The notes under the pieces: model-generated
What the model was told of the DNA's origin: nothing
Seen by the model: the letters and a program-made list of their open reading frames with translations, nothing else
The model's database searches: none
In this document: piece after piece, positions 28,586 to 47,352 of the stretch
Position numbering within the stretch: the stretch's first letter is position 1
Layout: every line of letters starts with the position of its first letter
Made by a program: the position numbers and the translations under genes
Source of the DNA: Cellulosimicrobium protaetiae
GTDB taxonomy: Bacteria > Actinomycetota > Actinomycetes > Actinomycetales > Cellulomonadaceae
Length of the DNA stretch: 64,000 nt
Assembly: GCF_009708005.2 (NCBI RefSeq)
Contig: NZ_CP052757.1
Span: forward strand, 2,542,001-2,606,000
Direction of reading: 5' to 3'

Positions 28586-30031
28586 ATGGATTTGTTCAGC
28601 GGCACGACTTTCAAGCGGGCGGTGGCGGCAGCGGTCGCGCTGCCCCTCGCGGGCGGGGCGACGCTCGTGGCGGCCGGCCCGGCGGCCGCGGACGAGGAGG
28701 ACTACAAGATCCTCGTCGTCGGCAAGACGCTCGGGTTCCGGCACTCGCACATCGACGACACGACGCGCGCGCTGATCGACCTCGGTGAGGACAACGGCTT
28801 CACGGTCGACGTGTGGGACCCGCCGAACGACTCCGCGGGCTGGTGGGGGAGCGGCTCGCCGGGTCAGCCCGACCTCACCATGGACTCGACGCCGTTCACG
28901 AGCGCCGAGGACCTGTCGCAGTACGCGACCCTGGTCTTCGTCTCGCCCGTCGACAACACGAACTCCCTGAACCCCGCGACGCCGCGCCTGCTCGACGACA
29001 CCGAGCTCGCGGCCCTCCAGGGCTACGTCCACGGTGGCGGCGGCTTCGTCGGGCTGCACGCCGCGACCGACACGATGCACACCGTCCCCTGGTACGGCGA
29101 GCTCACCGGCGGCGGGGCGCGGTTCGCCAGCCACCCGCAGCAGCAGACCGCGACCATGCGCGTCGAGAGCCCGGCCCACCCCTCGACCGCGCACCTGCCG
29201 GCCGTCTGGGAGCGGTTCGACGAGTGGTACAACTACACGACCAACCCGCGCGCGGACGTGCACGTGCTCCTCACGCTCGACGAGTCGACGTACTCCCCGG
29301 GCAACAACGCCATGGGCGAGGACCACCCGATCTCGTGGTGCCAGAACTTCGAGGGCGGACGCTCCTGGTACGAGGGCGCGGGTCACACGGACGCGTCGTG
29401 GACCGACCCGCTCTTCCTCGAGCACGTGCTCAAGGGCGTCGAGTGGACCGCGGGAGTCGTCGAGGGTGGCGGCAACTGTGTCACGTTCCCCGAGGTCGAC
29501 GCCGTCGTGGCCGGCCTGAACACCTCGGCTGTGGGCGACGGCGTGATCGCGGGAGCGATCGCCTCCCTGCTCGGCAGCGCGCGCACCGCGGCCGAGGCGG
29601 GCGACCCGGCCACGGCGGTCCAGGTGCTGGGCGGCGCGCGGTCGCTCGTCGACCATCTGTCCGCCGCGGCGGGCGACCGGGACCTCCTCGCGTCGAAGAT
29701 CGACGACCTCGTCGACTGGCAGACCGGTCTCGTCGACGACGGTCCCGCGCTCGACCTCGCGGCCGAGGCCGAGCTGCGGACCATGGGCGGCAAGCAGTAC
29801 CTCGCGGTGCGGGTGCTCAACGAGGACGACGCCGCCGTCGACATCACCGTCACGACGCCGTACGGGTCCAAGGAGTTCGCGGCCGTCGCCCCCACCAAGA
29901 ACGCCTACCAGGCGTTCGCGACGCGCCTCGTCGAGGTCCCTGCCGGGGAGGTGACGGTCACCGCGACCGCCGTGCTCGACGGCGAGACGGTCACCGAGGA
30001 GGTCGCGGTCGCCTACGCCGGCACCGCCTGA
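28586..30031 (+). CDS. secreted ThuA-domain protein with shared C-terminal module
   Basis: A 481-residue secreted protein. Signal peptide to about residue 36 ('LPLAGGATLVAAGPAAADE'). ThuA domain at about 40-290: 'KILVVGKTLGFRHSHIDD', 'LVFVSPVDNTN', 'GGGFVGLHAATDTMH', 'VHVLLTLDESTY', 'HPISWCQNFEGGRSWYEGAGH' and 'LKGVEWTAG'. A helical FIMAH-like linker follows (about 305-385), then a beta-rich C-terminal module from 400 ('KQYLAVRVLNEDDAAVDITVTTPYGSKEF'). That module is homologous to the last 85-95 residues of the two large sugar dehydrogenases nearby, but lacks their Cys pair. ThuA proteins belong to trehalose and 3-keto-sugar metabolism; the exact reaction here is inferred only. Confidence 0.9.
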   Translation: MDLFSGTTFKRAVAAAVALPLAGGATLVAAGPAAADEEDYKILVVGKTLGFRHSHIDDTTRALIDLGEDNGFTVDVWDPPNDSAGWWGSGSPGQPDLTMDSTPFTSAEDLSQYATLVFVSPVDNTNSLNPATPRLLDDTELAALQGYVHGGGGFVGLHAATDTMHTVPWYGELTGGGARFASHPQQQTATMRVESPAHPSTAHLPAVWERFDEWYNYTTNPRADVHVLLTLDESTYSPGNNAMGEDHPISWCQNFEGGRSWYEGAGHTDASWTDPLFLEHVLKGVEWTAGVVEGGGNCVTFPEVDAVVAGLNTSAVGDGVIAGAIASLLGSARTAAEAGDPATAVQVLGGARSLVDHLSAAAGDRDLLASKIDDLVDWQTGLVDDGPALDLAAEAELRTMGGKQYLAVRVLNEDDAAVDITVTTPYGSKEFAAVAPTKNAYQAFATRLVEVPAGEVTVTATAVLDGETVTEEVAVAYAGTA

Positions 30032-30059
30032 CAGTCCTTCCCACCGGGACAGTGCGCAC

Positions 30060-30096
30060 CGACGGCGCCCGTCGCACCGTGCGACGGGCGCCGTCG
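30060..30096. terminator. 17-bp hairpin between convergent genes
   Basis: A perfect 17-bp stem (30060-30076 with 30080-30096) has a 3-base loop. It sits between the ThuA-domain gene and the CueP gene and can serve both. No T tract. Confidence 0.75.
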
Positions 30097-30141
30097 CGCG
30101 GCGGGCGTCCGTGACGACACGGTCCGCCGTCGTCGGCTGAG

Positions 30142-30723
30142 TCAGGCGAGCTGGAGCGTCGTGAGGCACGTGGGGTCGTCGTCGCCCGTGGAGACGGTCG
30201 TCGTGCCGACCCGGCCGTCGTGCTCCACGCGCAGCTCCGCGTCGACGTCGCGGGGGAGCCAGTAGCCGACGAACCCGTTGGCGCCGAGCGTCGTGTCCTC
30301 CTCGACGAGGACGTCCCCGGTCGCGGCGTCGACGACGCTCACGCTCACGGGCTCGCCCGCGAGCTCTCCCTGGCACGTGGTGAGCGAGTGGAAGAAGCAC
30401 TCGTGCGTCCCGTCCACGTAGGGCGCGACCGAGAGGTAGAACACGTCGTCCGGCAGGGGGACGGTGGTCTCGTACGCCTCGTCGGCGAGCACGAGCTCCG
30501 CCGCGCGGACGGAGGCGACGAGGTCGGTGGGCCGGTCCGCCGTCTCCAGCGCCTCCAGGCGGTCCACGACCTCCCGCCCCGAGAGGCCCGCGAGGTCGTG
30601 CCGCTCGAGCAGCGCGTCGAGCGCGGTGGGTTCGGCCGTCCCGGCCGAGCAGCCGGCGAGCACGAGGGCGAGGGCGGTTCCGGCGGCGGCGGTCACGAAG
30701 GTCGGGAGGGCGCGTCGTCTCAT
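30142..30723 (-). CDS. CueP-family copper-binding lipoprotein
   Basis: A 193-residue lipoprotein. The signal peptide ends in the lipobox LAGC (Cys25 or so). The body matches CueP: 'VFYLSVAPYVDGTHECFFHSLTTCQGEL' contains the Cys and His metal ligands, with the third Cys in the terminal 'DPTCLTTLQLA', and 'GFVGYWLPRDVDAELRVEHDG' is a conserved middle part. CueP of Salmonella holds and delivers periplasmic copper. In actinobacteria the protein is exported and lipid-anchored. GGGAGG precedes the ATG by nine bases. No copper pump or regulator is adjacent. Confidence 0.88.
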   Translation of the reverse strand: MRRRALPTFVTAAAGTALALVLAGCSAGTAEPTALDALLERHDLAGLSGREVVDRLEALETADRPTDLVASVRAAELVLADEAYETTVPLPDDVFYLSVAPYVDGTHECFFHSLTTCQGELAGEPVSVSVVDAATGDVLVEEDTTLGANGFVGYWLPRDVDAELRVEHDGRVGTTTVSTGDDDPTCLTTLQLA

Positions 30724-30782
30724 GGGCCGATCCTCCCAGAGCGCACCGCCGTGACCAGGGCCGGGAGGTCGCGCGCCTCGCG

Positions 30783-31547
30783 GGCGACCGGAGGGTCCCG
30801 CTCGTCGTCGCGCTGTCGACGAGGCACGGGGACGCGGAGTCGGGCCTCGGCCAGCTCCTCGCGAGCGACGGCTCGCTCGGCGGCGTCGTCTACGTGGGGA
30901 TGTCGCGCACCGACGACCGGCTCGCCCGCGCCGTCGCGGACGGCCTGCCCGTCGTCGTCATCGACGAGGAGGTCGACCTCGACCTGCCCGTCGAGACGAT
31001 CACCGTGGACAACTACGGCGGCGCGTACCAGGCCACGAGCTACCTCGTGCAGCAGGGCCACCGCCGCATCGCGCACGTCGCCGGCCCCGCCGAGCTCTCG
31101 ACGACGCAGGACCGCCTGCGGGGCTACGTCGACGCGATGCACGACGCCGGGCTCGACGTCGACCCCGACCTCGTGCGGCACGGCCCGTACACCGAGCAGT
31201 TCGGCGCCTCGACGTTCCCCTACCTCACCCGGCCCGGCGGCGCGCCGACGGCGGTGTTCGTCGGCAGCGACATCGTCGCCGTCGGGATGCTCGGGGCGGC
31301 GGAGCTGCACGGCATCTCGATACCCGACGACCTCTCGGTCGTCGGGTGCGACGGCATCCGCGTCGGCCAGTGGCTGCGCCCCAAGCTCACGACGCTCGAG
31401 CAGCCCGTCGCGGCGCTCGCGCTCGCCGCGATGGACGCGATCGAGCGGTCCATGACCGGTGAGCGCCGCGCCGGCGCGCCCGCCCGCACGGTCCTGCCGC
31501 TGCACCTCGTCGTGCGTGGCTCGGTCGCGCGGGTCGAGGCGTCGTAG
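30783..31547 (+). pseudogene. LacI-family regulator lacking its N-terminal DNA-binding domain
   Basis: From about 30795 the frame reads like the periplasmic-binding-type effector domain of LacI proteins: 'VPLVVALSTRHGDAESGLGQLLASD', 'GLPVVVIDEEVDLDLPVETITVDN', 'GHRRIAHVAGP', 'PTAVFVGSDIVAVGMLGAA' and 'DDLSVVGCDGIRVGQWLRPKLTTLEQP'. The helix-turn-helix and hinge, some 85-90 residues, are missing: no suitable start or HTH is found upstream in any frame before the CueP gene. The first possible start is GTG 30894, inside the domain. It is therefore a 5'-truncated remnant, or at best a sugar-binding protein without DNA binding. Confidence 0.75.
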
Positions 31548-31659
31548 CGCTGCGGCGACGACCGCGCCCCCGGCGACGGGCGAGCGCCCGCTGCGCCACA
31601 CCGACCGACTTGCAGTGAACGGTCGCCGAAACATTCGCACGCGCATTTCAACTTTTGGC

Positions 31660-31688
31660 TTGGCAACGGCGAAAGCCGACCGTAAGGT
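31660..31688 (+). promoter_or_regulatory. promoter of the sugar-dehydrogenase/isomerase fusion gene
   Basis: TTGGCA (31660-31665) and TAAGGT (31683-31688) are spaced by 17 bases. GGCTT/AAGCC arms (31657-31661, 31673-31677) overlap the spacer. The 5' leader to the GTG at 31871 would be about 175 bases. The rest of the 323-bp gap after the LacI remnant holds nothing I recognise. Confidence 0.55.
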
Positions 31689-31870
31689 CGGACCAGTGCG
31701 GCGGCGGGGCATGGCACCGCCCGTCGCACCGGGTCTCACGTTCGAGGCCCAGCCATCCGGAGCCGACCGATCAGCGGAGATCGTCGTGCAGCGGCATCGG
31801 GAGCGCGCGCGTGCCTGGCGCTGCCGGTCCGGCGATCACCGTCTTCTCGTTACGCGTCAAGGAGGACGTT

Positions 31871-34800
31871 GTGCACAGACGAACGATCACGAGCCCTCGC
31901 AGGCTCGCCCGACGAGGTGTCGCCGCGGTCCTTGCCGCCGCGGTGCTGGTACCCCTCTCGATCAGCGCGGCCGGCGCCCACCCCGGTCACGAGGAACCGA
32001 CACCGGCCGCCGACGAGGCGACCGACTGGGACAGCTACGAGAAGGTGCTGCTCAGCAAGAACACCGGCGAGCCCATCGATCTCGCCGTCCTGCCCGACTC
32101 CCGTGTCCTGCACACCGCGCGCGACGGCGTCGTACGCCTCACCGACTCCGCGACGGGCCTGACCACCCAGATCGCGGACCTCGACGTCTACTCCAACTCC
32201 GAGGACGGGCTCCAGGGCATCTCGCTCGACCCGGCCTTCGAGGAGAACCACTTCCTGTACATGGTCTACGCGCCCCGCGTGATGGATGGCACGTCGCCCT
32301 CCGGCGTGGAGTACCCCGAGACGACCCCGGCGGGGAGCGCGCCGAACTCGCTGCCGGCCGGCGAGGACGAGAGCTACTGGGACCAGTGGCTGGGCTACAA
32401 CGTGCTGTCGCGCTTCACGTGGGACCCGGCCACCGACGCCATCGACCTGTCCACCGAGCGCGAGATCCTCAAGGTCGACGCGCAGCGTGGGCAGTGCTGC
32501 CACGTCGGCGCCGACATGGCGTGGGACGACGAGGGGAACCTGTTCCTCTCCACCGGTGACAACACCCCCGCCAGCACCCCGGGTGCGAACGGCTACGCGC
32601 CGAACAACAACGCCCCGGGCATGAACCCCGGCTTCGACGACCGTCGCGGCGCCGGCAGCACCAACGACCTGCGCGGGAAGATCCTGCGGATCAACCCGAT
32701 CGAGGACCTCGCCGCCGGCACCGAGGTGGGTCCGGGGAGCACGTACACGATCCCGGAGGGCAACCTCTTCGACGACGCGCAGTACGACGACGTCCGGGAC
32801 CTCGTCCGCGACGAGACGTACGTCATGGGTCTGCGCAACCCGTTCCGCATCGACTACGACGTCGAGTCCGGCGCGCTCGTGTGGGGCGACTACGGCCCCG
32901 ACGCGGCCGCCGCGAACCCCGACCGCGGCCCGATGGGCTACGTCGAGTGGCAGCTCACGACAGAGCCGATGAACGGCGGCTGGCCGTACTGCCACGGTCC
33001 CAACGCCAACTACAACGAGTGGGACTACGCGACCCAGACGCCGGGCGAGTGGTTCGACTGCGAGGCCGGCGCCGTGAACAACTCGACGTGGAACACCGGT
33101 CTGGACGTCCTGCCGCCCGCGACCGCGCCGCAGGTCTACTACGGCGACAACCCGGGCGACCAGCCCGAGGTGCTCGACCCGCTGACGGCGTGGGGCGGCG
33201 GCGGCCAGGCCCCGATGGGCGGCCCGATCTACCGCTACGACGAGACCCTCGACTCGGACGTCAAGTTCCCCGAGTACTGGGACGGGCACCCGCTGATGGC
33301 GGAGTTCTCGCAGGACTACGTCGCGGCGTTCACGCTCGACGAGCTCACCTCGGCCGGCCAGGTCACCGCCGTCGAGGACTTCCTGCCGAACGCTCACCTG
33401 GAGACGGTCAACCAGCCGATCTGGGACAACGTCATGGACATGGAGTTCGGCCCGGACGGCGCCCTGTACGTCCTGGAGTACGGTGACGGCTTCTTCCGCC
33501 AGAACCCGGACGCCGGCCTGTACAAGGTCGTCTACGGGTCGGAGAACACCCACCCGCGTGCCTTCATCGACGCCGACCCGATCTCGGGCAGCACCGCTCC
33601 GCTCGAGGTGACCTTCGACGCGTCGGCCTCGACCGACGCCGAGACCCCGGCCGGCGAGCTCGTCTACGACTGGGACTTCGACTCCGACGGCGTCTACGAC
33701 GCCCAGGGCGTCACCGTCACGCACACGTTCACCGAGCTCGGGCAGTACAACGTGCAGCTGCGCGTCACCGACGCCGGTGGCAACTTCGGCCTCGCGATCC
33801 AGCAGGTCACGGTCGGCAACACCGCCCCCGTCATCACCCTGGACCAGCCGGACGGCGCCATCTTCAACTGGGGCGACGCCGTCCCGTACACCGTCTCGGT
33901 CGAGGACGCCGAGGACGGCAACCAGCCGACGTGCCGCAACATCCAGTACACGTTCGGTCTCGGCCACAACACGCACGCGCACCCCGAGGTGAGCGGTCGG
34001 GCCGCGGACACCGCGGACGGTTGCGGCTTCACCATCCAGACCAGCCCCGACGCCGTCGAGCACGGGGAGGGCGAGAAGATCTACGGCACCCTCGTCGTGA
34101 CCTACACGGACCAGGCGCAGGGCGACGTCCCGGCCATCCGCGGCGAGGCCACGCACGTCCTCAAGCCCGAGGAGCAGCAGGCCGAGTGGTACGACGCGGC
34201 CGAGGGCATCGAGGTCGCGGACGACGCCGAGGCCGACGCGGGGAAGTACGTGACCTCGCTCGACGAGGGCGACTCGTTCTCGTACCAGCCGATCGCGTTC
34301 TCCCACGCCCCGACCGGTGACGCCATCAACGCCGTGACCATGATCGGTCGCGGCGAGGGCACCGTCTCCCTCGGCTGGGTGGGCGCGGACGGCGAGACCG
34401 TCGACTCGCTCGCCGAGTTCCGGTTCACCGGTGACACCTGGAAGGACGCCACCCGCACGCTCACCGAGGTGCCGGAGGGCACCGGGACCCTCGTCGTGAC
34501 GAGCACCGGTGGCGTGGACGTCGACAACCTGACCTTCGGGAAGAACGTCGTCGTCCCGGCAGAGCAGGTCTCCATCCAGATGTTCTCGCTCATCCCGTGG
34601 GTCCGGGCGGACGGCCAGCAGGCCGTGCTCGACCGGCTCGGGGAGATCGGGTTCCAGAACGTCGAGCCCTACGGCGGCAACTTCTCCGGCCTGACGGCCG
34701 AGCAGTTCCGTGCGCAGGCCGACGCCGCGGGTGTCACGGCGAAGTCGTCGCACTACAACGTCAACGAGGCGACCTTCGACCAGACGCTCGAGTACGTCGG

Positions 34801-36427
34801 GACGGTCGGGCAGGAGTACGTGGGCTCGGGCGGGTTCCCGCAGCCGGGCATCGGCACCCTGGAGAACACGCTCGCGACGGCCGAGGCGATGAACCGTCTC
34901 GGTGAGCGTGCCGTGGCCGCCGGGTTCGAGAAGTTCTTCGGCCACAACCACGACGGTGAGTTCCGGACGACGTACATGTACAACGGGGTGGAGACGTCGG
35001 CGTGGGAGATCCTCGTCGCGGAGACGAACCCGGAGTACGTGACGTTCCAGCTCGACGTCGCCTGGGCGGCGCACGCGGGCGTGGACGTCCCGGCGCTGAT
35101 CGAGCAGTACGGCGACCGGATCGAGCTCCTGCACGTCAAGGACGCGACCGGCATCAACGCCGGTGGTCGCCCGACCTTCACCAACCTCGGTGACGGCGAC
35201 GTGCCGCTGCAGCAGATCCTCGCTGCGGCGCAGGAGGCCGGTGTCGTCTACTACGTCATGGAGTACGACCAGGCCCCGAACGGCGAGGACTTCGCCACCA
35301 CCGGGTACGAGTACCTCACCGGTGAGCCCGCGGGCGGGCCCACCGGGCCGGTCGTCGTCCCGGTGGACCAGGTCTCGATCCAGATGTTCTCCCTGATCCC
35401 GTGGGTGAACGCGGTGGGCCTGCCGGCAGTCCTCGAGCGACTGTCCGAGATCGGGTTCAAGAACATCGAGCCGTTCGGCGGCAACTTCGCGGGCTACACG
35501 GCCGAGGAGTTCCGGGCGCTCGTCGACTCGTACGGCCTGAGCGTGAAGTCCTCGCACTACAACGTGAACGAGGGCACGTTCGACCAGACGCTCGACTTCG
35601 TCACGACGCTGGGCCAGGAGTACGTGGGCTCCGGCGGCTTCCCGCAGCCGGGGATCGGCACGTACGAGAACACGCTGGCGACGGCCGAGGCGATGAACCG
35701 TCTCGGTCAGCGCACCGTGGACGCGGGGCTGGAGAAGTTCTTCGGCCACAACCACGACGGCGAGTTCCGCACCACGTACGAGCACGACGGCGAGACGCTC
35801 TCGGCCTGGGAGATCCTGGTCCGCGAGACCGACCCGGAGTACGTGACGTTCCAGCTCGACGTGGCGTGGGCCGCCCACGCGGGCGTCGACGTCCCGGCGC
35901 TCATCGCGGAGTACGGCGACCGGATCGAGCTCGTGCACGTCAAGGACGCCACGGGTCTGAACGCGGGCGGACGCCCGACGTTCACCAACCTCGGTGACGG
36001 CGAGGTGCCGCTCCAGGAGATCCTCGCCGCCGCCCAGGAGGCCGGGGTCAGGTACTACGTCATGGAGTACGACGTGGCCCCCGACGGCGAGGACTTCGCC
36101 ACCACCGGGTTCGAGTACCTCACCGGCCAGGAGGCCGGCGCGAACGAGCGGACGGTCGCGGTGACGGCACAGCCGCGGTGCCTCGCGGGCAAGGCCTACC
36201 TCGCCGTCCGTGCGCTCAACGACGAGGACGTCCCGCTCGACATCACGATCGAGACGCCCTACGGCAGCCGGACCTTCGAGGACGTCGCGCCGGGCAAGAA
36301 CGCCTACCAGTCGTTCAACGCCCGGGCCGACCAGATCGAGGCCGGCACGGTGAGCGTCACGGCGACCGACGCGGAAGGGGGGACCGCCACGGTGACCGCC
36401 GACCACGCCGCGCAGACGTGCGGCTGA
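31871..36427 (+). CDS. secreted sugar dehydrogenase - PKD - CBM - double sugar-isomerase fusion
   Basis: A 1518-residue secreted protein; GTG follows GGAGG by six bases and a signal peptide ends near 'SISAAGAHPG'. Order: GSDH/PQQ-type sugar dehydrogenase propeller, about 45-555 ('DGLQGISLDPAFEENHFLYMVYAP', 'CCHVGADMAWDDEGNLFLSTGD', 'LRGKILRINP', 'YVMGLRNPFRIDYD'); PKD, 560-643; a beta domain to 765; a CBM6-like domain, 770-895; two xylose-isomerase-like TIM barrels, 895-1153 and 1160-1421, each with 'SIQMFSLIPWV', 'GHNHDGEFRTTY', 'FQLDVAWAAHAGVDVPAL' and 'HVKDATG'; then the shared C-terminal module with 'RCLAGKAYLAVRALN' and a final 'TCG'. I infer oxidation of bound sugar followed by isomerisation outside the cell. 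Confidence 0.93.
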   Translation: MHRRTITSPRRLARRGVAAVLAAAVLVPLSISAAGAHPGHEEPTPAADEATDWDSYEKVLLSKNTGEPIDLAVLPDSRVLHTARDGVVRLTDSATGLTTQIADLDVYSNSEDGLQGISLDPAFEENHFLYMVYAPRVMDGTSPSGVEYPETTPAGSAPNSLPAGEDESYWDQWLGYNVLSRFTWDPATDAIDLSTEREILKVDAQRGQCCHVGADMAWDDEGNLFLSTGDNTPASTPGANGYAPNNNAPGMNPGFDDRRGAGSTNDLRGKILRINPIEDLAAGTEVGPGSTYTIPEGNLFDDAQYDDVRDLVRDETYVMGLRNPFRIDYDVESGALVWGDYGPDAAAANPDRGPMGYVEWQLTTEPMNGGWPYCHGPNANYNEWDYATQTPGEWFDCEAGAVNNSTWNTGLDVLPPATAPQVYYGDNPGDQPEVLDPLTAWGGGGQAPMGGPIYRYDETLDSDVKFPEYWDGHPLMAEFSQDYVAAFTLDELTSAGQVTAVEDFLPNAHLETVNQPIWDNVMDMEFGPDGALYVLEYGDGFFRQNPDAGLYKVVYGSENTHPRAFIDADPISGSTAPLEVTFDASASTDAETPAGELVYDWDFDSDGVYDAQGVTVTHTFTELGQYNVQLRVTDAGGNFGLAIQQVTVGNTAPVITLDQPDGAIFNWGDAVPYTVSVEDAEDGNQPTCRNIQYTFGLGHNTHAHPEVSGRAADTADGCGFTIQTSPDAVEHGEGEKIYGTLVVTYTDQAQGDVPAIRGEATHVLKPEEQQAEWYDAAEGIEVADDAEADAGKYVTSLDEGDSFSYQPIAFSHAPTGDAINAVTMIGRGEGTVSLGWVGADGETVDSLAEFRFTGDTWKDATRTLTEVPEGTGTLVVTSTGGVDVDNLTFGKNVVVPAEQVSIQMFSLIPWVRADGQQAVLDRLGEIGFQNVEPYGGNFSGLTAEQFRAQADAAGVTAKSSHYNVNEATFDQTLEYVGTVGQEYVGSGGFPQPGIGTLENTLATAEAMNRLGERAVAAGFEKFFGHNHDGEFRTTYMYNGVETSAWEILVAETNPEYVTFQLDVAWAAHAGVDVPALIEQYGDRIELLHVKDATGINAGGRPTFTNLGDGDVPLQQILAAAQEAGVVYYVMEYDQAPNGEDFATTGYEYLTGEPAGGPTGPVVVPVDQVSIQMFSLIPWVNAVGLPAVLERLSEIGFKNIEPFGGNFAGYTAEEFRALVDSYGLSVKSSHYNVNEGTFDQTLDFVTTLGQEYVGSGGFPQPGIGTYENTLATAEAMNRLGQRTVDAGLEKFFGHNHDGEFRTTYEHDGETLSAWEILVRETDPEYVTFQLDVAWAAHAGVDVPALIAEYGDRIELVHVKDATGLNAGGRPTFTNLGDGEVPLQEILAAAQEAGVRYYVMEYDVAPDGEDFATTGFEYLTGQEAGANERTVAVTAQPRCLAGKAYLAVRALNDEDVPLDITIETPYGSRTFEDVAPGKNAYQSFNARADQIEAGTVSVTATDAEGGTATVTADHAAQTCG
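34558..36130 (+). repeat. tandem duplication of a sugar-isomerase domain within one gene
   Basis: Two units of about 780 bp (roughly 34558-35335 and 35360-36130) encode barrels that are about three-quarters identical by eye, including long identical runs such as 'GQEYVGSGGFPQPGIGT' and 'NAGGRPTFTNLGDG'. Divergence is in surface residues. Confidence 0.9.
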
Positions 36428-36502
36428 CGCGGTCCTGACGGGGCCGGGTGGGGCGGGCGTCCGACACCGCCTCACCCGGCCTGCCGAGGGCACCGCGCGA
36501 AC

Positions 36503-36540
36503 GACGGCCCGGGAGACGACTCCTCGTCTCCCGGGCCGTC
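36503..36540 (+). terminator. 17-bp perfect hairpin terminator
   Basis: Arms 36503-36519 and 36524-36540 with loop CTCC. It lies 75 bp after the fusion gene and ends its transcript before the next gene. Confidence 0.8.
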
Positions 36541-36674
36541 GGTGCGTCTCGTCGAGCAGGTCGTGGCGGAACCGGTGGCGAGTGGCGTCCCGGCTCGCGA
36601 GCGAGGCCGACCCTGGGGAGCATGGCGGTGGTGTCGAGCAGGGGCGCCGTCCGCGCGAACGCGAGGAGCCCAGC

Positions 36675-37868: not shown

Positions 37869-37940
37869 CGACCGCGGGACGTGGACTCGCTGCCCCCGCT
37901 CGACGGCAGGGCCCTGCGGGACGGCCGGGGAGGGGCCGCG

Positions 37941-39570: not shown

Positions 39571-39668
39571 GGGCGCTCCTCGGGTCGTCGTGCTCCCGTT
39601 CTCGAAGCCCTGCGTCGACCGTAGGCACGATCGCCCGCGCTCGCGCGCGAGGCCCCCGGACGCACGTC

Positions 39669-39699
39669 GCCCTCGTCCTGGCGGGGCCGGGACGAGGGC
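39669..39699. terminator. terminator-like hairpin
   Basis: A 14-pair stem with loop GGG (arms starting at 39669 and ending at 39699, one T-G pair). It lies upstream of the DUF2231 gene and downstream of the decayed FAD gene on the same strand, so it may end the latter's transcript. Confidence 0.5.
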
Positions 39700-39987
39700 G
39701 GTCGTCGCGGGGCAGGCGTGCGGCGGGCTTCTTCACCGGCTGCCATGCGACGGGAACCACGCTGGGGTGGTCGCGGGCCGCACGTCGCCCTCCGGCGGCG
39801 GGTGAACGTCCGAACGGCGCGCGCACAGGCTCCCCCTGCGCTCCGGGCTCGCGCGGGCTAGGGTCGTCGCTCCGGGTCAGGACGTGGCTCGCGACCGTCT
39901 CGTCGACGAGGCAGGCAGCATGAGCACCGACCACGACCAGAACCGCGCCCGCGCGCTGCCGGGCGACGGCTTCCTCGGCAAGTACCG
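39700..39987. other. intergenic remnant region
   Basis: At 39920 an ATG opens a plus-strand frame beginning MSTDHDQNRARALPGDGF and 'LGKYRYDVVREES', which looks like a gene start but runs into the antisense of the decayed FAD gene within 35 codons. I cannot assign it. Together with the FAD gene's missing 3' end, it suggests a deletion junction near 39990. Nothing else was recognised. Confidence 0.35.
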
Positions 39988-40601
39988 CTACGACGTCGTG
40001 CGCGAGGAGTCGCCGCCGCGGGCGCGCAGCCGGGCGACCAGCGCGTTCGGGAGGCGCCCGGCGCCCCCGGTCGGGACGGGAAGCCGACCTCCTGTCCGAG
40101 CATGGCGAGCAGGCGCGCGAGATCCAGCGTCCCCGCCGCCCCCAGGCGGCGCAGCACGCGCAGCACCGGCCCGGCGGCCGGGAGCGGGCTGAAGAGCGCG
40201 TCGAGGAGCGGGTCGCGCACCCGGTCCCAGCCGGCGACGAGCTCGAGCCACGCGTCGCCGTCCCCGGCCGCGAACTCCTCCAGCCCGGCGGCGGTGTCCG
40301 CGGTGCGCTCGCCGTCGAGCACGTGGGCCAGGGCGTCCGGCGCGCGCGATCACGACAGCCCATGGTCCTCCAGGTGCAAGCCCCGGATGACGGGCGACCC
40401 GGCCGCGAGCGGGTAGAACGCGCTGAAGAGGTCCGTCTCGTACCTCGGTGCCGCGACCTCGGCGGAGCGGACCGCCCCGCCGGAGGTCTCCTGTGCCTCC
40501 AGGACGAGGACGTCCCACCTGGCGTCGGCGAGCGCGTGCGCGGCGACGGGGCCGTTGGGCCCCGCGCCGACGACGACCGCGTCGACGGTGGTCAGGCCCA
40601 C
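39988..40601 (-). pseudogene. decayed FAD-dependent oxidoreductase (phytoene-dehydrogenase-like)
   Basis: It starts well: 'VDAVVVGAGPNGPVAAHALADARWDVLVLEAQE' is the FAD-binding fold and 'YETDLFSAFYPLAAGSP' is typical of this carotenoid-oxidoreductase-like family. Codon 84 is TGA (40350-40352) where the family has Trp. The same frame then continues with 'RAPDALAHVLDGER' and 'LDEFAxGDGDAW'-like sequence. Near 40078-40084 one base is missing and the sense moves to another frame ('VPTGGAGRLPNALVARLRARGG'). The 3' half of the gene is absent. An internal deletion before 'LAMLGQEVGF' is also likely. It overlaps the stop of the alcohol dehydrogenase gene by 10 bases. Confidence 0.82.
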
Positions 40602-41785
40602 GGGTCGAGCACGACCTTGATGCAGCCGTCCTCCTTGCGCTGGAACGTGCGGTACGCGGCCGGGGCGGACTCGAGCGGGAGGCGGTGCGTCCGCAGGTCC
40701 AGGACGCCGAGCGGGTCGGACGCGTCGGCGGCCAGGGGGAGGACGTCGTCGGTCCACCGCCGCACGTTCGCCTGGCCCATGCGCAGCGTCACCTGCTTGT
40801 CGAAGAGCTGCATCATCGGCAGAGGGTCCTTCGCGCCGCCGTAGACGCCCGAGATCGAGACGGTGCCGCCGCGGCGGACGAGCTCGAACGCCGAGTACAG
40901 GGCCGCGAGGCGGTCCGTCGCAGCGCGCTCGGTGAGGGGCGCCGCGATCGCGTCGGGCAGGACGCCGACCACCTTCTGCGTGGCCTCCGCGACGGGGGAG
41001 CCGTGCGCCTCCATGCCGACCGCGTCGATCACGGAGTCGGCGCCACGCCCGGACGTCAGGTCGCGCACCGCCGCGGCGAGGTCGTCGACGGCGGACGGGT
41101 CGAGGGTCTCGACGCCGTGCCGCTCGGCCATCGCGCGCCGCTCCGGGACGCGGTCGACGCCCACGACGCGGGACGCCCCGCGGTGGAGCGCGATCCGGGC
41201 CGACATCTGCCCGATGGGGCCGAGGCCGAGGACCACGACCGTGCCGCCCGGCGGGACGTCGGCGTACTCGACCGCCTGCCACGCGGTGGGCAGGACGTCG
41301 GAGAGGTAGAGGTAGCGCTCGTCCGGCGACCCGTCGTCGGGCACGACGACGGGGCCGTACTGCGCCTGCGGCACGCGCAGGTACTGGGCCTGGCCCCCGG
41401 GGACCTGGCCGTAGAGCCTGGTGTACCCGAAGAGCGCGGCACCCTTGTCCTGGGAGCGCACCTGCGTCGTCTCGCACTGCGTCTGCAGGCCGCGCTCGCA
41501 CATCCAGCAGTGCCCGCACGCGATGTTGAACGGGATCACGACGCGGTCGCCGACCCGGAGGTTCCCGGCCTCGGGACCGACCTCCTCGACGACGCCCATC
41601 GCCTCGTGGCCCAGGACGTCGCCCGCGTCGAGGAACATCCCGAGCACCCCGTACAGGTGCAGGTCGGATCCGCAGATCGCGGTCGACGTGACGCGCACGA
41701 CCGCGTCCGTGGGCTCCTCGATGCGGGGGTCGGGCACGTCCTCGACGCTTACCTTCTCGCGTCCCTGCCAGGTCAGTGCTCGCAT
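40592..41785 (-). CDS. zinc-dependent alcohol dehydrogenase (formaldehyde-dehydrogenase-like MDR)
   Basis: A 397-residue medium-chain dehydrogenase. Catalytic zinc: Cys in 'AICGSDLHLYG', 'GHEAMGVVEEVG' (His-Glu) and the later acid. The structural zinc is held by 'CGHCWMCERGLQTQC'. The Rossmann site is 'VVVLGLGPIGQMSARIALHRGA' with 'VVGVDRVPERRAMAE', where the Asp suggests NAD+. The length and the insert near 275-290 match the glutathione-independent formaldehyde dehydrogenase-like group. It starts the unit that reads into the decayed FAD gene. Substrate not known. Confidence 0.9.
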   Translation of the reverse strand: MRALTWQGREKVSVEDVPDPRIEEPTDAVVRVTSTAICGSDLHLYGVLGMFLDAGDVLGHEAMGVVEEVGPEAGNLRVGDRVVIPFNIACGHCWMCERGLQTQCETTQVRSQDKGAALFGYTRLYGQVPGGQAQYLRVPQAQYGPVVVPDDGSPDERYLYLSDVLPTAWQAVEYADVPPGGTVVVLGLGPIGQMSARIALHRGASRVVGVDRVPERRAMAERHGVETLDPSAVDDLAAAVRDLTSGRGADSVIDAVGMEAHGSPVAEATQKVVGVLPDAIAAPLTERAATDRLAALYSAFELVRRGGTVSISGVYGGAKDPLPMMQLFDKQVTLRMGQANVRRWTDDVLPLAADASDPLGVLDLRTHRLPLESAPAAYRTFQRKEDGCIKVVLDPWA

Positions 41786-42201
41786 GGTGCTGCCATCCTT
41801 CCGTCGATGGTCGTGCGGTGCGGCGTGCTCAGCCCCTGCTGCACGTCTGCTCCGACCGTGGCCGGACAGGACGTCGAGCGGGTCGAGCCTGCGGGGATCC
41901 GTGGACGTCGCCGAGTTCGGCTGGGAGACGAGCGACGCACGAGGCCGGCCACAGCCGGGCCCCGAGGAGGATCGTCAGGACGAGGGCCGCCCGGCACAGA
42001 GCGGTTCGTCCGTGCCGACGGTCCGAGCCGGTTCCCGACGCCGACCGCCGTTCGCGCGGCTGCCGCGCCGCGTCGGCGGCTGGCTGCACCGACGCCGCCA
42101 GTGAAGCACCGGCCCTGCCCGCTCACACGCCGAGCCGGTTCTCCGGCACGCGCGGCCCCGGTGGGCGTGCGGGCGCCCGGGGCGCGCGGCACCCTCGTTC
42201 C
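41786..42201. other. intergenic region between divergent genes, nothing recognised
   Basis: About 415 bp between the alcohol dehydrogenase (minus) and FUSC (plus) starts. I find no coding frame with family similarity, no RNA gene and no clear promoter pair. Confidence 0.4.
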
Positions 42202-43329
42202 GTGACGAGCGAGGACCGGACCGCGGGCAGCAACCGACGCGGCTCGCGGGCGGTCGAGGCCGGGACGCGCCCGCGTCGCGTCGTGGCGGCCGCGCAGCGG
42301 CAGTGGGTGCGCCACCCGCGGTGGTCGCTCGCGGTCAAGGGCGCGGTCGCCGCCGCCATCGCGTGGTTCGCCGGCGTGCTCGCGCCCGAGCCGTTCTCCG
42401 ACTACCCCTACTACGCCCCGCTGGGCGCCGTCGTCGCGACGACGAGCACGCTCGCCCGCTCGGTCCGCGAGTCAACCCAGGCGATCCTCGCGATCCTCGT
42501 CGGAGCGGCGATCGCGCGCGGCGTCGACCTCGTCCTCTTCCCGAGCGCGCTGTCGGTCGCGCTCGTCGTCGGGCTCGCGCTCCTGTGCTCCGGGTGGCGC
42601 CACTTCGGCGAGATGGGCACGTGGGCGGTGACGTCCGCGCTGTTCGTCCTCATCATCGGGAACGCGGCCAAGGTCGAGTTCGTCGGCGCGTACGCGGGGC
42701 TCGTCGTCGTCGGCGCGGCCATCGGTGTGGTGATCAACCTCCTGGTCCCGCCGCTGCCGCTCACGCCGACCGAGGACGCGCTCGACGGGCTGCGCGACAC
42801 GCTCGTCGACCAGGTCGAGGCGCTCGCGGACGGGCTCGCGGGGGAGCGGCCGCCGTCCGCGGAGGAGTGGGAGGAGCGTCGCCGCGAGGTGGAGCCGACG
42901 CTCGCCCGTGCGCGCGACGCGGTCTCGCGCACGCGAGAGGCCGCGCGCGCCAACATCCGCCTGCGCCGGCACCGGGACTGGGCCGTCTCCCAGGTGCGGC
43001 GTGCGCAGGAGCTCGAGGTGTCGGCGGACGTCGTGGGCTCCCTCGTCCGGCTCCTCGTCGAGTGGGAGCGCGAGGGGCGCGACGACCTCGCCCTCGGTGC
43101 CCGGTTGCGCCCCGTCGCGGCGCGCGCGCTCGACGCCTACGCGGCCGCGCTCCGCTCCGTCGGCTCCGAGCCTGCCGACGAGGAGACGCTGCGCACGGTC
43201 GCCGCGAGCGCGGAGGACCTGCGCGCGGCGGTCCGGGAGGCGCGGCAGGAGGTCGACGCGGACTACTTCGTCGCCGGTGCGGTCGTGCTCGCGCTCCGAC
43301 GTGGCGCGGCCGCCCTCGCCGCCACGTGA
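42202..43329 (+). CDS. FUSC-family membrane protein (aromatic acid exporter-like)
   Basis: A 375-residue protein. The N-terminal half holds about six membrane helices of the FUSC / ArAE type: 'WSLAVKGAVAAAIAWFAGVL', 'YYAPLGAVVATTSTLARSVRES' (the family's conserved loop), 'AILAILVGAAIARGVDLVLF', 'ALSVALVVGLALLCSG', 'VTSALFVLIIG' and 'GLVVVGAAIGVVINLLVPP'. The C-terminal half is a long cytosolic helical region rich in Glu and Arg, probably coiled. Related proteins export aromatic acids or toxic compounds. The GTG start lacks a strong ribosome binding site. It is convergent with the 1298-residue sugar dehydrogenase gene. Confidence 0.82.
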   Translation: MTSEDRTAGSNRRGSRAVEAGTRPRRVVAAAQRQWVRHPRWSLAVKGAVAAAIAWFAGVLAPEPFSDYPYYAPLGAVVATTSTLARSVRESTQAILAILVGAAIARGVDLVLFPSALSVALVVGLALLCSGWRHFGEMGTWAVTSALFVLIIGNAAKVEFVGAYAGLVVVGAAIGVVINLLVPPLPLTPTEDALDGLRDTLVDQVEALADGLAGERPPSAEEWEERRREVEPTLARARDAVSRTREAARANIRLRRHRDWAVSQVRRAQELEVSADVVGSLVRLLVEWEREGRDDLALGARLRPVAARALDAYAAALRSVGSEPADEETLRTVAASAEDLRAAVREARQEVDADYFVAGAVVLALRRGAAALAAT

Positions 43330-43360
43330 CCGTCGGCGACGGCGACGGGCGAGGACGCAC

Positions 43361-43415
43361 GAACCGCCCCGGTCCCGCGGGCTGGTCGGACGCAGCCTGC
43401 GGGCCGGGGCGGTTC
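43361..43415. terminator. long hairpin between convergent FUSC and sugar dehydrogenase genes
   Basis: Outer stem of 12 perfect pairs (43361-43372 with 43404-43415) and an inner CCCGC/GCGGG stem. It can stop transcription from both sides. Confidence 0.7.
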
Positions 43416-43455
43416 ACGGTCACGAGCTCCGGGTCAAGAGCTCGGGGGGCACCTG

Positions 43456-46400
43456 TCACCCACAGGTGTGCGCCGCGTGCTCGACGACCACCTCGCTCGA
43501 CACCTCCTCGCCGTCGACCGTGGCGGTCGCGGAGACGGTGACGGACCCGGCGTCGATCGCGGTGGCCCGCGACGCGAACGACTGGTAGGCCGCCTGGCCG
43601 GGCTGGACGTCCGCCACGGTCTTCGAGCCGAACTCCGTCGTGAGCGTCACGTCGGCCGGCACGTCGGACGTGTTCGTCGCCGCGACGGCGAGGTACGCCT
43701 TGCCCGCGAGGCAGCGCGGGGAGACCGCCACGTCGAGCTCGACCCCGGCCGGCTCTGCGGCCGGCGTGACCACGAGGCCGCGCAGGCTGCCGGTGTTGTC
43801 GAACGAGCCGAAGCCGACGCGCCCCTCGGTGAACGTCGTGTCGTTCGCCGTGAGGAGCGGGGTGTCGAGGCCGTCGAGGTACACGGCGACGTCGCCGCTG
43901 TCCGCGCAGCGCACGACGCGCACGTCGTGCCACTCCTCGTCGGTGACGGCCGGGGGAGCCCCGACCGCGCCGTCCCACTGGTCGTCGATCCGCTCCCGGT
44001 CCTTGCCGTCGACCTTGAAGATGCCGTTGTGGGCGTAGATCGTGTTGTCCTGCGACAGGTGGGCGTAGTAGTACTCCGTGTCCGACTGCCAGCCGAACAC
44101 CACGATCACGTCCCGGTTGTTCACCGATGCCGGGGCATCGAGCTTGACCTCGGCGTCGAGCGCGAACGAGCCGAGCTCGGGGCCCTCGGCGAGGACGGCG
44201 TACTCGAACGGGCGGCGGATGCCGTCGTTCGGGTTGTCGCCCGCCTGGGCGAGGACGACCGCGTCCCCGGGGAACTGCCACTTCGACGGCGTGCGCGGCG
44301 CCCAGCTCTCGGCCGCCATCACGTCCGTGATCGGCTCGCCCGCCGGGGCGCACGACGGCGGCGCCGGGGGCTCGACCGGCTGCGCGCCGAACCGGGCGTA
44401 CTGCGCCGCGACCTGCTCCGGCGTCGGGACGGTGTCGAGGAACATGAGGTCGTCCATGCGGCCGTGGAACGGGTTGGCCTCGCGCGTGTTCTGCGGGAAG
44501 CTGCCGCCGATCTTGAGGCCCGCGGGGTCGGTCGGGGAGGTGGCCCCGGCTCCCCACGGGTTCGAGGCCGTGTACTCGCCCTCGAGCTCTTCTCCGTTCA
44601 TGTAGAGCTTCATCTCGCCGCCCGCGAAGTCGAACGTCGCGGCGAGGTGGACCCAGCGGTTGCGCTCGAGGATCTGGTCCCACGGCAGGTCGGCCGCGAA
44701 CGTCCAGGACCCGGCGCCGTCGACCCGGCGGCCGAGCGCGACGAGCTTGAGCTCGTTCCCGACCGTGATGACCTCGAGCAGCGCGCGCACGGCGTGGCCG
44801 TCCGACGTCCCGGTGAGGACGCCGGCGAGCCCGATCGCGTTGTAGCGGTCGTCCGGGTTCGCGGTGCCCGAGTTGAGGGCCGGGTGCTCGCCGGTCGGCT
44901 TGAACCAGCCCATGACGGAGATCTCCTCGGCGTCCGCGAAGGCCCCGAGCGAGTCCACACCCGTGGGGTCGTGGACGCCGGCCTTCCAGTCGTCGTTCGA
45001 CGACGTGAGCGGGCTCATCTGCTGCGTCTGGAGCGCCTCGCCCGCGCCCGGGTAGGCCCGGTCGGCCACGCGCATCTCCACCCCGCCGTTGACGAGCTGG
45101 ATGTTCGTGCCGGACCAGCCCTGGTCCGCCTCCCACGTCGTCGAGCCGGCGACCGGGTGGTCGAAGTCGTAGTGCGCCGCGACGTTCCCGGCGAGCTCGG
45201 GGAGCACGACGGGCGAGGACGCCCCGACGCGCCGCGCGTCGGTGACCTGCCAGATCTTCCCGTTGGCCTTCGAGACCAGGTAGAGCTCGCCGTCGGCGTC
45301 GGACCCGAAGCGCAGGTCGACACGCTGGTCACCGACGAGCTCCTGGAACGTGGTCTCCTGACCGTCGGCGAACACGCGCAGGTGCTCGATCTCGGCGAGG
45401 TCGTCGAGGTCGCCGTCGTTGCGCACCATCTCGTCCGCCTCCGTGCTCAGCACCCAGCCGCGCACGAGGTCGGTGAAGAGGTAGCGTCCGCGCAGCTCGG
45501 GGATGTCGCCGCGGTAGACGAACCCGCCGTTGAGCGCGACGCCCGCGTCGCCGGTCTGGCCGGGGTCGCGGTTGTGGTCGTAGGCGGCCACGGGGTACGT
45601 GAAGCCGTTCTCGGCGTCGTCCGCGGGCAGCGGGTAGATCTGCCGGTTGTCCGCGCGGAACGACCCCTCGCGCACGGACCACCCGAAGTTGTCGCCCGGC
45701 TCGACGGCGTAGACCGACTCGACCTGCCACTCGCCGATGTGCCCGAGGTACATCGTGTGGTCACCCTCGGGGTCCCAGCTGATGCGGTGCGGGTCGCGCA
45801 GGCCGACCGCGTAGATCTCCGGCAGCGCGCCCGGCGTGCCCACGAACGGGTTGTCGGCCGGGATGCCGTACCGACCGTTCGCGGCGTCCGTGCCCAGCGG
45901 GTCGATGCGGAAGACCTTGCCCTGGGGCGTGGCGAGGTCCTGCGGGTTGCCGTTGCCGACGCCGTTGCCGCCGTCGCCCACGAGGACGTAGAGGTTGCCG
46001 TAGTCGGCGTCGCCCTCCGTGACCGTCGGGTTGAACGCGATCTGCTGCACCGTGTGCACGCGGCCGGCGAACGGCACGCGCAGGACCTCGCGGCTCGTGC
46101 CCGCGAAGACCGGTGCGGACGGGTCGGTCGCCTTCCACTCCGTGACGACGCTGTGGAACTGCGTGTTGCCGTACGCCGGGTAGTCCGGGGTGTCCTGGGT
46201 CAGCGCCGTGCCGCCCTCGGTGTGCACCGTGTAGAACAGGCCGTTCTCGGCGAAGTCGGGGTGGAACTCGGCGGAGCCGAGACCGGTGCCGAGGCCCGCG
46301 CTGTTGTGGAAGTTGTCGAGGAACTGCTGGCGCACGTCGAGGTACGCCACGTACTCACCGGTGTCCTTGTCGACCGTGTAGAGCACCGCGTTGTTGTCGG

Positions 46401-47352
46401 GCACCATGAGGCGGCCCGAGCCGTCCGGGATCTCGTCGAGGTGCGTGATCCGGTTGTGCCGCACGAGGCGCTGGTCCTGCGTCGCCGGGGTCGTCTGCGA
46501 CTCCGGGAGCTGGGCGAGCTCCGTCACCTCGATGCCGAGCGTCGACGGCGTCGGGTCGGGCAGCGGGTTGAGCAGCGGCTCGTCCGGCGTCGTGCCGCCC
46601 GCGGCGCAGTCGGCCGGGTTGCCCGTCGGGACCGCGAGGTTCTGCCCCGCCGTGTCGACGGCGACGTCGTCGAGCAGGAGGCGGCCCGCGCTGCTGGCGC
46701 CGTTGATCCAGAAGAAGCGGTCGAGCGCCCCGGTCACACCCTGGCGGAAGCCGAACTGCTGCTCCGTGCCCTCGGGCAGCCGGGTGATCTCCTCGTACGG
46801 GCCGCCCTGGCTGTAGACGCTGACCTTGTCCGTCGCGTTGTCGGCCACGATCCAGACGCACTGCCACGTGTCGCGCGACCAGACGCCCGCGGGCTTGAAG
46901 GCGCCGCCGTCGCGCACGAGCATGACGTCGTTGTTCTGGTTGTTCACGTACGCGCGGCTGTGCGCGTAGTCCGACGGCGCGTCGTTGTCGGTGATGCCGA
47001 ACGACGTGTCGACGCTGCCCGTCCGCAGGAAGCGGAAGAACACGGTCCCGGTCGTGCCGTCCGCGATCCCCGGGACGGCGCGGTGGGCGCGCTGGGTGCC
47101 ACCGACCATCTCGAGCACCTGGTTGTTGCCGTTGAGCGGGTCGGCGACGACCCGGGCGGCGGTCGAGGCGGACCAGCCGTCCTGGCCGTTCAGCGCGGTG
47201 CGTTGGTAGGCCTCGAAGCTGAGGACCTCGCTGAACTCGTCCGCGGCCTCCTCCGCGGCCGCCGGTGGTCCGAGGAGGGTGACCCCCAGGACGGCCGTGA
47301 GCGAGAGGGCGACCGCCGCTCTCCCTCGTCGGCTCGAATGCGTAGACGTCAT
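43456..47352 (-). CDS. secreted multidomain PQQ-type sugar dehydrogenase with lectin domains
   Basis: A 1298-residue secreted protein; GGAG precedes the ATG and the signal peptide ends near 'GPPAAAEEA'. Order: lectin-like jelly roll, about 35-225; GSDH sugar dehydrogenase propeller, 270-705 ('GLGSAEFHPDFAENGLFYTVH', 'GNLYVLVGDGGNGVGNGNPQ', 'QGKVFRIDPLGT', 'EIYAVGLRDPHRISWDP', 'GDNFGWSVREGSF'); LamG-like domain, 720-985; a second jelly roll resembling 3-keto-disaccharide-hydrolase/DUF1080 folds, 1004-1194; then the C-terminal module ('SPRCLAGKAYLAVAATNTSDV', final 'HTCG') shared with the fusion protein at 31871 and the ThuA protein. I infer oxidation of polysaccharide-bound or free sugars at the cell surface. 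A LacI-type operator controls it. Confidence 0.93.
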   Translation of the reverse strand: MTSTHSSRRGRAAVALSLTAVLGVTLLGPPAAAEEAADEFSEVLSFEAYQRTALNGQDGWSASTAARVVADPLNGNNQVLEMVGGTQRAHRAVPGIADGTTGTVFFRFLRTGSVDTSFGITDNDAPSDYAHSRAYVNNQNNDVMLVRDGGAFKPAGVWSRDTWQCVWIVADNATDKVSVYSQGGPYEEITRLPEGTEQQFGFRQGVTGALDRFFWINGASSAGRLLLDDVAVDTAGQNLAVPTGNPADCAAGGTTPDEPLLNPLPDPTPSTLGIEVTELAQLPESQTTPATQDQRLVRHNRITHLDEIPDGSGRLMVPDNNAVLYTVDKDTGEYVAYLDVRQQFLDNFHNSAGLGTGLGSAEFHPDFAENGLFYTVHTEGGTALTQDTPDYPAYGNTQFHSVVTEWKATDPSAPVFAGTSREVLRVPFAGRVHTVQQIAFNPTVTEGDADYGNLYVLVGDGGNGVGNGNPQDLATPQGKVFRIDPLGTDAANGRYGIPADNPFVGTPGALPEIYAVGLRDPHRISWDPEGDHTMYLGHIGEWQVESVYAVEPGDNFGWSVREGSFRADNRQIYPLPADDAENGFTYPVAAYDHNRDPGQTGDAGVALNGGFVYRGDIPELRGRYLFTDLVRGWVLSTEADEMVRNDGDLDDLAEIEHLRVFADGQETTFQELVGDQRVDLRFGSDADGELYLVSKANGKIWQVTDARRVGASSPVVLPELAGNVAAHYDFDHPVAGSTTWEADQGWSGTNIQLVNGGVEMRVADRAYPGAGEALQTQQMSPLTSSNDDWKAGVHDPTGVDSLGAFADAEEISVMGWFKPTGEHPALNSGTANPDDRYNAIGLAGVLTGTSDGHAVRALLEVITVGNELKLVALGRRVDGAGSWTFAADLPWDQILERNRWVHLAATFDFAGGEMKLYMNGEELEGEYTASNPWGAGATSPTDPAGLKIGGSFPQNTREANPFHGRMDDLMFLDTVPTPEQVAAQYARFGAQPVEPPAPPSCAPAGEPITDVMAAESWAPRTPSKWQFPGDAVVLAQAGDNPNDGIRRPFEYAVLAEGPELGSFALDAEVKLDAPASVNNRDVIVVFGWQSDTEYYYAHLSQDNTIYAHNGIFKVDGKDRERIDDQWDGAVGAPPAVTDEEWHDVRVVRCADSGDVAVYLDGLDTPLLTANDTTFTEGRVGFGSFDNTGSLRGLVVTPAAEPAGVELDVAVSPRCLAGKAYLAVAATNTSDVPADVTLTTEFGSKTVADVQPGQAAYQSFASRATAIDAGSVTVSATATVDGEEVSSEVVVEHAAHTCG

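Follow-up and report, generated by a model that had tools for sequence, protein, structure and literature searches.

A shared C-terminal module of secreted actinobacterial enzymes as a candidate docking tag for a WxL-like/WxLIP surface platform

Sorting signals of the LPXTG and PEP-CTERM kinds act genome-wide, strictly at the C-terminus and independently of the passenger they follow. In the WxL/Csc cell-surface complexes of Firmicutes, CscA is a WxLIP/DUF916 protein, CscB a small WxL protein, CscC stands for large WxL proteins and CscD for a short LPXTG protein, with a proposed role in carbohydrate use (PMC1534035, PMC10599100). WxL itself is reported almost solely from Lactobacillales and Bacillales (PMC10599100). 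Among Actinobacteria, Cellulosimicrobium cellulans F16 secretes a 17.9-MDa, 20–65 nm particle, Xyl_I or 'hemicellulosome', of at least 26 subunits; the 2015 report detected neither cohesins nor dockerins in that genome, and its authors left the mode of assembly open (PMC4562250). Here we describe a module of about 90 residues that ends three secreted proteins in a 64,000-nucleotide window of Cellulosimicrobium protaetiae (contig NZ_CP052757.1, positions 2,542,001 to 2,606,000) and dozens more elsewhere in that genome. Judged from sequence, the module is most likely a disulfide-stapled C-terminal docking tag of a surface platform of the WxL/WxLIP type.

The three C-terminal modules of the window are homologous far beyond chance. 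A secreted ThuA-domain protein of 481 residues (28586..30031, + strand; PF06283, E = 1.5e-61) ends in a cysteine-less copy, A, at 29756..30028. A secreted protein of 1518 residues read from a GTG start (31871..36427, + strand) combines GSDH, PKD and CBM_6 domains with two xylose-isomerase-like TIM-barrel stretches ahead of copy B (36155..36424), and a secreted dehydrogenase of 1298 residues (43456..47352, − strand) joins GSDH and Laminin_G_3 domains to copy C (43459..43737); copies B and C have both cysteines. The proteins were read as open reading frames with domain searches, and the copies were placed by alignment and profile match. BLASTP between the different proteins gave identities of 48–56% at E-values from 3e-18 to 6e-30: the module pairs aligned at 54.9% over 71 residues (E = 5e-23), 50.7% over 69 (E = 3e-18) and 56.0% over 91 (E = 8e-27), and the reverse search of the A/C pair at 47.9% over 94. 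Local alignment scores of the pairs were 202–252, against a maximum of 63 in 1000 shuffles per pair. An original prediction, made from the DNA letters, had called these three modules homologous, with a cysteine near the start and a terminal TCG in two of them and neither in the ThuA copy, and all of this is borne out. Its claim that the catalytic parts differ completely is not, as both large proteins carry GSDH and four other module proteins fuse ThuA to GSDH.

The original prediction treated the three as a set; genome-wide, they belong to a much larger family. A profile of the three copies returned 57 matches in the 4.78-Mb genome (two contigs, C1 and C2), comprising 54 C-terminal modules in 54 proteins and three weaker internal ones in one further protein. 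A hydrophobicity rule found a signal-peptide-like N-terminus in 48 of the 54; two of the remaining six are cut at the edge of the locus and four have none under that rule. The C-terminal position is equally strict in other genomes. All 117 module-bearing frames from 78 loci carry a single module no more than 3 residues from their end, although overlap between loci may repeat some of these frames; the loci are mostly from Cellulosimicrobium and also cover records labelled Sphaerisporangium, Oerskovia, Promicromonospora, Jiangella, Micromonospora, Plantactinospora and Acrocarpospora. The external loci together gave 195 distinct copies in frames with a stop; of these, 193 lie no more than 13 residues from the protein end, and the two exceptions are internal. 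Internal module-like domains lie at L233:8219-8497 and L239:8326-8607, in stretches where we found no WxL-like/WxLIP gene pair of the kind described below; the first is followed by what we take, by eye, to be chitin-binding-like repeats and the second by a presumably immunoglobulin (Ig)-like region.

The module is restricted in its spread. It occurs in 36 of 81 genomes of a family sample, 37 of 248 of an order sample and 6 of 396 of a phylum sample, the C. protaetiae genome being counted in each. Six genomes of its genus in the family sample hold 27–64 matches each and the others 0–36; these per-genome counts are lower bounds, with at most 64, 20 and 13 candidates scored per genome in the family, order and phylum samples. 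A typed module consensus found no match in phages, and spread by phages was rejected on that result.

The two cysteines of the module behave as a unit. Its consensus reads V-x-A-x-x-R-C-L-A-G-K-A-Y-V-A-V-R-A-x-N ... T-P-(Y/F)-G ... V-A-P-G-x-N-A-Y-Q-S-F-A-x-R ... C-G, with conserved aromatics (Y/F in TPYG, Y in AYQSF), conserved polar positions (R, N, Q, R) and no Trp conserved among the C. protaetiae copies. Both cysteines are present in 49 of these copies and both are missing from five; none has a single one, and the module holds no further cysteine. The same count in 193 external copies is 180 with both, none with one and 13 with neither, where a cysteine was scored by how close it lay to the ends of the matched stretch and 7 of 200 copies were skipped. 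Because the two are always present or absent together, a disulfide between the regions of the first and last strands is almost certain.

This is a module family that is absent from the libraries we searched and widespread in actinobacteria. Pfam and NCBIfam offered no convincing family: the module regions of the three window proteins gave a single sub-threshold Pfam match (TcaA_3rd_4th, E = 0.14, 12.5 bits against a cut-off of 27) and none in NCBIfam. Among 25 of the 27 Pfam families listed for the 54 C. protaetiae modules, the best E-value was 0.002 (CARDB, in 2 of 54), and weak CBM_35 matches appeared in five modules (best E = 0.007). Profile searches of the PDB matched the designed Ig proteins 8bl6 (E = 1.7e-4) and 8bl3 (E = 2.3e-4), with other PDB matches weaker. 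Together with weak matches to CARDB and DUF4232, these suggest that the roughly 90-residue fold is probably Ig-like; Big families also matched weakly. That the module might be a known common domain, an outcome the original prediction had named as its own undoing, was set aside because these Pfam, NCBIfam and PDB matches are all weak or sub-threshold. The literature we searched, in one case by a query ranked on an unhelpful common term, yielded no description of it.

Passengers of the module are enzymes of many kinds. We sorted the 54 proteins from their Pfam listings (E ≤ 1e-5 for 51 proteins, E ≤ 1 for the three in the window). Half of them, 27, have a glycoside hydrolase (GH) or glucoamylase domain, from families GH2, 13, 20, 26, 30, 31, 43, 51, 53, 59, 84, 92, 97 and 127; two of the GH43 matches fall just below the family cut-off, and some numbers, such as GH51 and GH84, are those we take to correspond to the Pfam names. 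Eleven are of ThuA, GSDH, 3-keto-disaccharide hydrolase or isomerase-like types. Another eight belong to other enzyme families (subtilase, M28 peptidase, asparaginase, purple acid phosphatase, PAP2, type I phosphodiesterase, nuclease/5'-nucleotidase and putative esterase), one is BNR/sialidase-like, and seven have binding domains alone or no match. No domain besides the module is common to all 54, and many passengers already contain CBM_6, CBM_35, F5/8 type C or LamG domains. Eight GH18 proteins and one GH16 protein of the same genome lack the module; a split between endo- and exo-enzymes as the explanation is suggestive only.

Where genomes carry few modules, the same two genes recur around them. 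One encodes a secreted protein of about 210 residues and the other a protein of about 350 residues in which we read, by eye, a signal peptide, a C-terminal membrane helix and a basic tail. The larger protein matches PF06030 (WxLIP_PGBD, formerly DUF916) in all four cases tested (37.3, 29.4, 29.2 and 32.3 bits; cut-off 27.3), and the Clavibacter one carries a DUF916 annotation. None of the four matches DUF3324, the host-binding domain of WxLIP, at E ≤ 0.1; their weak matches are to other, partly Ig-like, families. The smaller protein has the motifs D-T-R ... W-x-V and G-W-x-P, degenerate relative to the two Trp-x-Leu motifs, and occupies the place that the small WxL protein has in Firmicutes Csc/WxL clusters. 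In C. protaetiae the WxL-like gene (C2 67395-68051) and the WxLIP gene (C2 ~68164-69216) lie directly before module proteins 51, 52 and 53. We found no description of WxL/WxLIP beside such enzymes in Actinobacteria in the literature searched. One report notes DUF916 in the neighbourhood of other domains (PMC12537917).

Adjacency of pair and module recurs across genomes. Within the stretches examined, 16 of the 26 low-copy genomes or records show at least one member of the pair and 14 show both, with the WxL-like gene alone in L231 and the WxLIP gene alone, at the locus edge, in L247. Low-copy here means at most five copies seen. The 26 consist of seven named genomes or records and 19 others, namely the low-copy genomes of the order sample with listed positions plus G337 of the phylum sample; low-copy genomes of the family sample without listed positions are left out, and the Clavibacter and Nonomuraea copy numbers come from tblastn of single records. 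The pair or its first member was also seen, in stretches of 2.4–20 kb, in six of nine multi-copy genomes outside the Cellulosimicrobium/Oerskovia loci, C. protaetiae included and G535, G602 and G628 standing outside that count. In 21 of 24 tabulated loci the pair shares the strand of the module gene at a gap below about 0.9 kb; it lies on the opposite strand in L230, L231 and L232. None of 33 control loci (127 kb in all) contains the pair, although these average 3.9 kb and are shorter than most test stretches. On plasmids pCCh and pCP of the plant-associated Clavibacter phaseoli (L153, L251), module-bearing GH43 and Ig-like-domain proteins occur with the WxL-like/DUF916 pair, and on pCP sugar ABC transporter genes lie near them.

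A WxL-like domain takes the place of the module in three Streptomyces and Embleya loci. We searched plasmid records with the C. protaetiae WxLIP, without reference to the module, and obtained 10 records: two from Clavibacter and one from Nonomuraea, which hold both module and pair, and six from Streptomyces and one from Embleya. In each of the three examined of these last seven (L248, L250 and L249; two Streptomyces, one Embleya), a secreted protein encoded directly ahead of the DUF916 gene ends in a WxL-like domain. These C-terminal domains matched a model of the small pair protein at E-values of 1e-8, 5e-9 and 1.5e-15; the Streptomyces domain matched at 1e-8, a value for 20,000 sequences, has a W-S-L motif. 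The Embleya protein is a phosphodiesterase that shares 40% identity over 482 residues with C. protaetiae module protein 25, a type I phosphodiesterase, up to their tails: protein 25 ends in the module and its Embleya relative in the WxL-like domain. By this alignment the two C-terminal domains are exchanged, at least on this phosphodiesterase family. No other evidence points as directly to the module as a functional counterpart of the WxL domain, one that would attach proteins to a WxLIP platform.

The module is also the best candidate for what assembles the giant Cellulosimicrobium particle, judged by analogy with F16. A key particle subunit, M768_06655, has the domain order ThuA-GSDH-PKD-CBM_6-PKD, and its free monomeric forms, both natural and proteinase-released, have masses of 118.3–118.5 kDa and lack the C-terminal ~500 residues (PMC4562250). 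The same five-domain order recurs, within the same genus, in C. protaetiae protein 10 (L137), where ConA-like domains and then the module follow; cut to 118.4 kDa, protein 10 loses about 524 residues, module included. Full-length copies are found in 12 of 13 genus genomes, C. protaetiae among them, and all 12 end in the module. From the shared domain order and the truncated free forms we infer that M768_06655 has the module at its C-terminus and is held in the particle by this end. The F16 report did not identify an assembly signal (PMC4562250). Four long ThuA-GSDH-PKD-CBM_6 fusions are present among the C. protaetiae module proteins (10, 15, 26 and 40; L137, L139, L148 and L118). The F16 protein with this architecture is a reported beta-xylosidase that falls in no known GH family (PMC4562250); glycoside cleavage by the ThuA/GSDH part may therefore be unusual in mechanism, perhaps oxidative.

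With moderate confidence we favour a reading in which the module docks enzymes to a WxL/WxLIP platform at the cell wall and may also form the tag of the particle. Enzymes with signal-peptide-like N-termini would be exported by Sec. Their folded C-terminal module would then bind a surface platform, situated at the membrane and peptidoglycan, that consists of the small secreted WxL-like protein and the membrane-anchored WxLIP (PF06030). Dozens of hydrolases and oxidoreductases would thereby be kept together near the cell, so that breakdown products are freed close to uptake systems. The cellulosome-like particle of C. cellulans F16 could then represent platforms shed together with the enzymes they carry. 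A broader proposal, possible but doubtful in our judgement, is that Actinobacteria have a second, cohesin-independent answer to the cellulosome problem: the module, carried by as many as about 60 secreted enzymes of a genome, would plug into the WxL-like/WxLIP platform, replace the WxL domain that is fused in Firmicutes and some Streptomycetaceae, and assemble the 17.9-MDa particle.

Such a system would resemble several described ones without coinciding with any. With WxL/Csc complexes it shares a WxLIP-type protein (PF06030), a small secreted WxL-like protein, large multi-domain secreted proteins that have one C-terminal domain in common, and clustering of the components, with the pair near a module gene. 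Unlike those complexes it is actinobacterial, its large proteins end in an almost certainly disulfide-bonded module of about 90 residues rather than a WxL domain, a single genome can hold at least 64 module matches, the motifs of the small protein are degenerate, and its WxLIP has no DUF3324 match. As in cellulosomes, one small module, apparently of docking type, ends many different secreted enzymes, and the genus includes a producer of a giant multi-enzyme particle; unlike in cellulosomes, no dockerin is listed on the 54 module proteins and no multi-cohesin scaffold was found in the C. protaetiae genome at E ≤ 0.1. The module is as genome-wide, strictly C-terminal and passenger-independent as LPXTG and PEP-CTERM signals. 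It differs from them in being a folded domain, by all appearances, and not a short signal, with no membrane helix, basic tail or cleavage motif after it.

Several observations weigh against docking to a WxL-like/WxLIP platform. The pair is missing from the stretch examined in 10 of the 26 low-copy genomes, from 75 of 78 loci (nearly all Cellulosimicrobium, each up to 12 kb) and from each of the 20 loci around protein 10 or a relative of it (L155–L174), and the C. protaetiae stretches show one pair for 54 clients. This would fit one platform serving dispersed clients, but would equally fit no link at all. The small pair protein has no match in Pfam (three tested, E ≤ 0.1) or NCBIfam (two tested, E ≤ 1), and the PF06030 scores of its partner lie not far above the cut-off. 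DUF916 genes also occur without the module, none being detectable in the three Streptomyces/Embleya stretches examined of the seven such records, and the tail exchange is known from one enzyme pair. As to the particle, the ~500 residues missing from the free subunit also include ConA-like domains, which confounds the role of the module, and no laccase family is listed among the 54 passengers, though laccases are named among the particle proteins (PMC4562250).

Other functions for the module fit parts of the same evidence. It might be a carbohydrate-binding module (CBM)-like domain, for glycans or wall polymers, that keeps enzymes attached to envelope polysaccharide or to their substrate, with the pair merely a neighbour in polysaccharide-use loci; the 27 GH or glucoamylase passengers, the conserved aromatics and the internal module-like domains of two external proteins, one followed by presumed chitin-binding-like repeats, would suit that. 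We consider it unlikely from the sequences, as eight passengers are of protease, phosphatase, nuclease, asparaginase or esterase families, many passengers have CBM_6, CBM_35, F5/8 type C or LamG domains of their own, the module lacks a conserved Trp, and it both adjoins the pair and exchanges with a WxL-like domain; a single copy at the extreme C-terminus also seems unlike usual CBMs. Strict C-terminal position and perfect cysteine pairing are likewise what one would expect of a passive, disulfide-locked Ig cap, which would guard against carboxy-end proteolysis or aid folding and would need no partner. Such a cap seems quite improbable given the lineage-restricted spread in the order and phylum samples, the repeated adjacency to one gene pair, and conserved polar positions (R, N, Q, R) that appear to exceed a cap's needs.

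Two further readings are much weaker. The original prediction linked the module to one extracellular sugar oxidation and isomerisation system and proposed checking whether it always ends GSDH, ThuA, DUF1080 or isomerase proteins. Eleven of the 54 passengers are of ThuA, GSDH, 3-keto-disaccharide hydrolase or isomerase-like types and 43 are of others; the passenger list rules out a sugar-oxidation-specific tag, and the reading is now barely credible. The other half of that claim, a shared cell-wall or complex-forming tag, is strengthened by the strict C-terminal end, single copy per protein, diverse passengers and nearby WxL/WxLIP pair. Cellulosome-like docking to a single cell-wall-anchored cohesin has in its favour that all 11 cohesin-bearing genomes of the 81 in the family sample have the module. 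It is nonetheless very improbable: 25 of the 36 module genomes lack cohesin, and the cohesin has its own likely partner, since 10 of the 11 genomes have a dockerin, a domain found in 12 of the 81, no more than about 2 kb away from it. Cohesin was dropped as the module's receptor on this proximity and because, in the order sample, 6 of the 12 genomes with cohesin yielded no module. In C. protaetiae, the one single-cohesin gene (E ≤ 0.1) encodes a secreted protein with a LASTGA-type C-terminal anchor and adjoins an amidase whose dockerin scores at its cut-off; they form a self-contained pair on the − strand at C1:2742615-2745388 (L185:9116-11889). F16, unlike this genome, is reported to have neither cohesin nor dockerin (PMC4562250).

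One long C. protaetiae protein (C1, ~1138.7–1144.0 kb; L129) contains internal repeats that bear a weak similarity to the module (best E = 1.1e-7). By eye it consists of an ECF-type sigma factor, a Cys-rich zinc-finger-like region, a membrane helix and extracellular Ig-like repeats, and its C-terminal region resembles what we presume to be a chitin-binding domain; it is possibly a surface sensor. The repeat protein, near C1:1142 kb, was set aside as a scaffold because it starts, by eye, as an ECF-type sigma factor.

Our analysis names the most likely assembly tag for the particle reported in 2015 (PMC4562250) and predicts its receptor. The module profile lists the clients in any genome, and removal of the ~95 C-terminal residues should free an enzyme. 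If docking of the module to a WxL-like/WxLIP platform is borne out, it would provide a small modular tag for enzyme display and would bring nutrient acquisition in Actinobacteria within the range of the WxL/WxLIP surface system.

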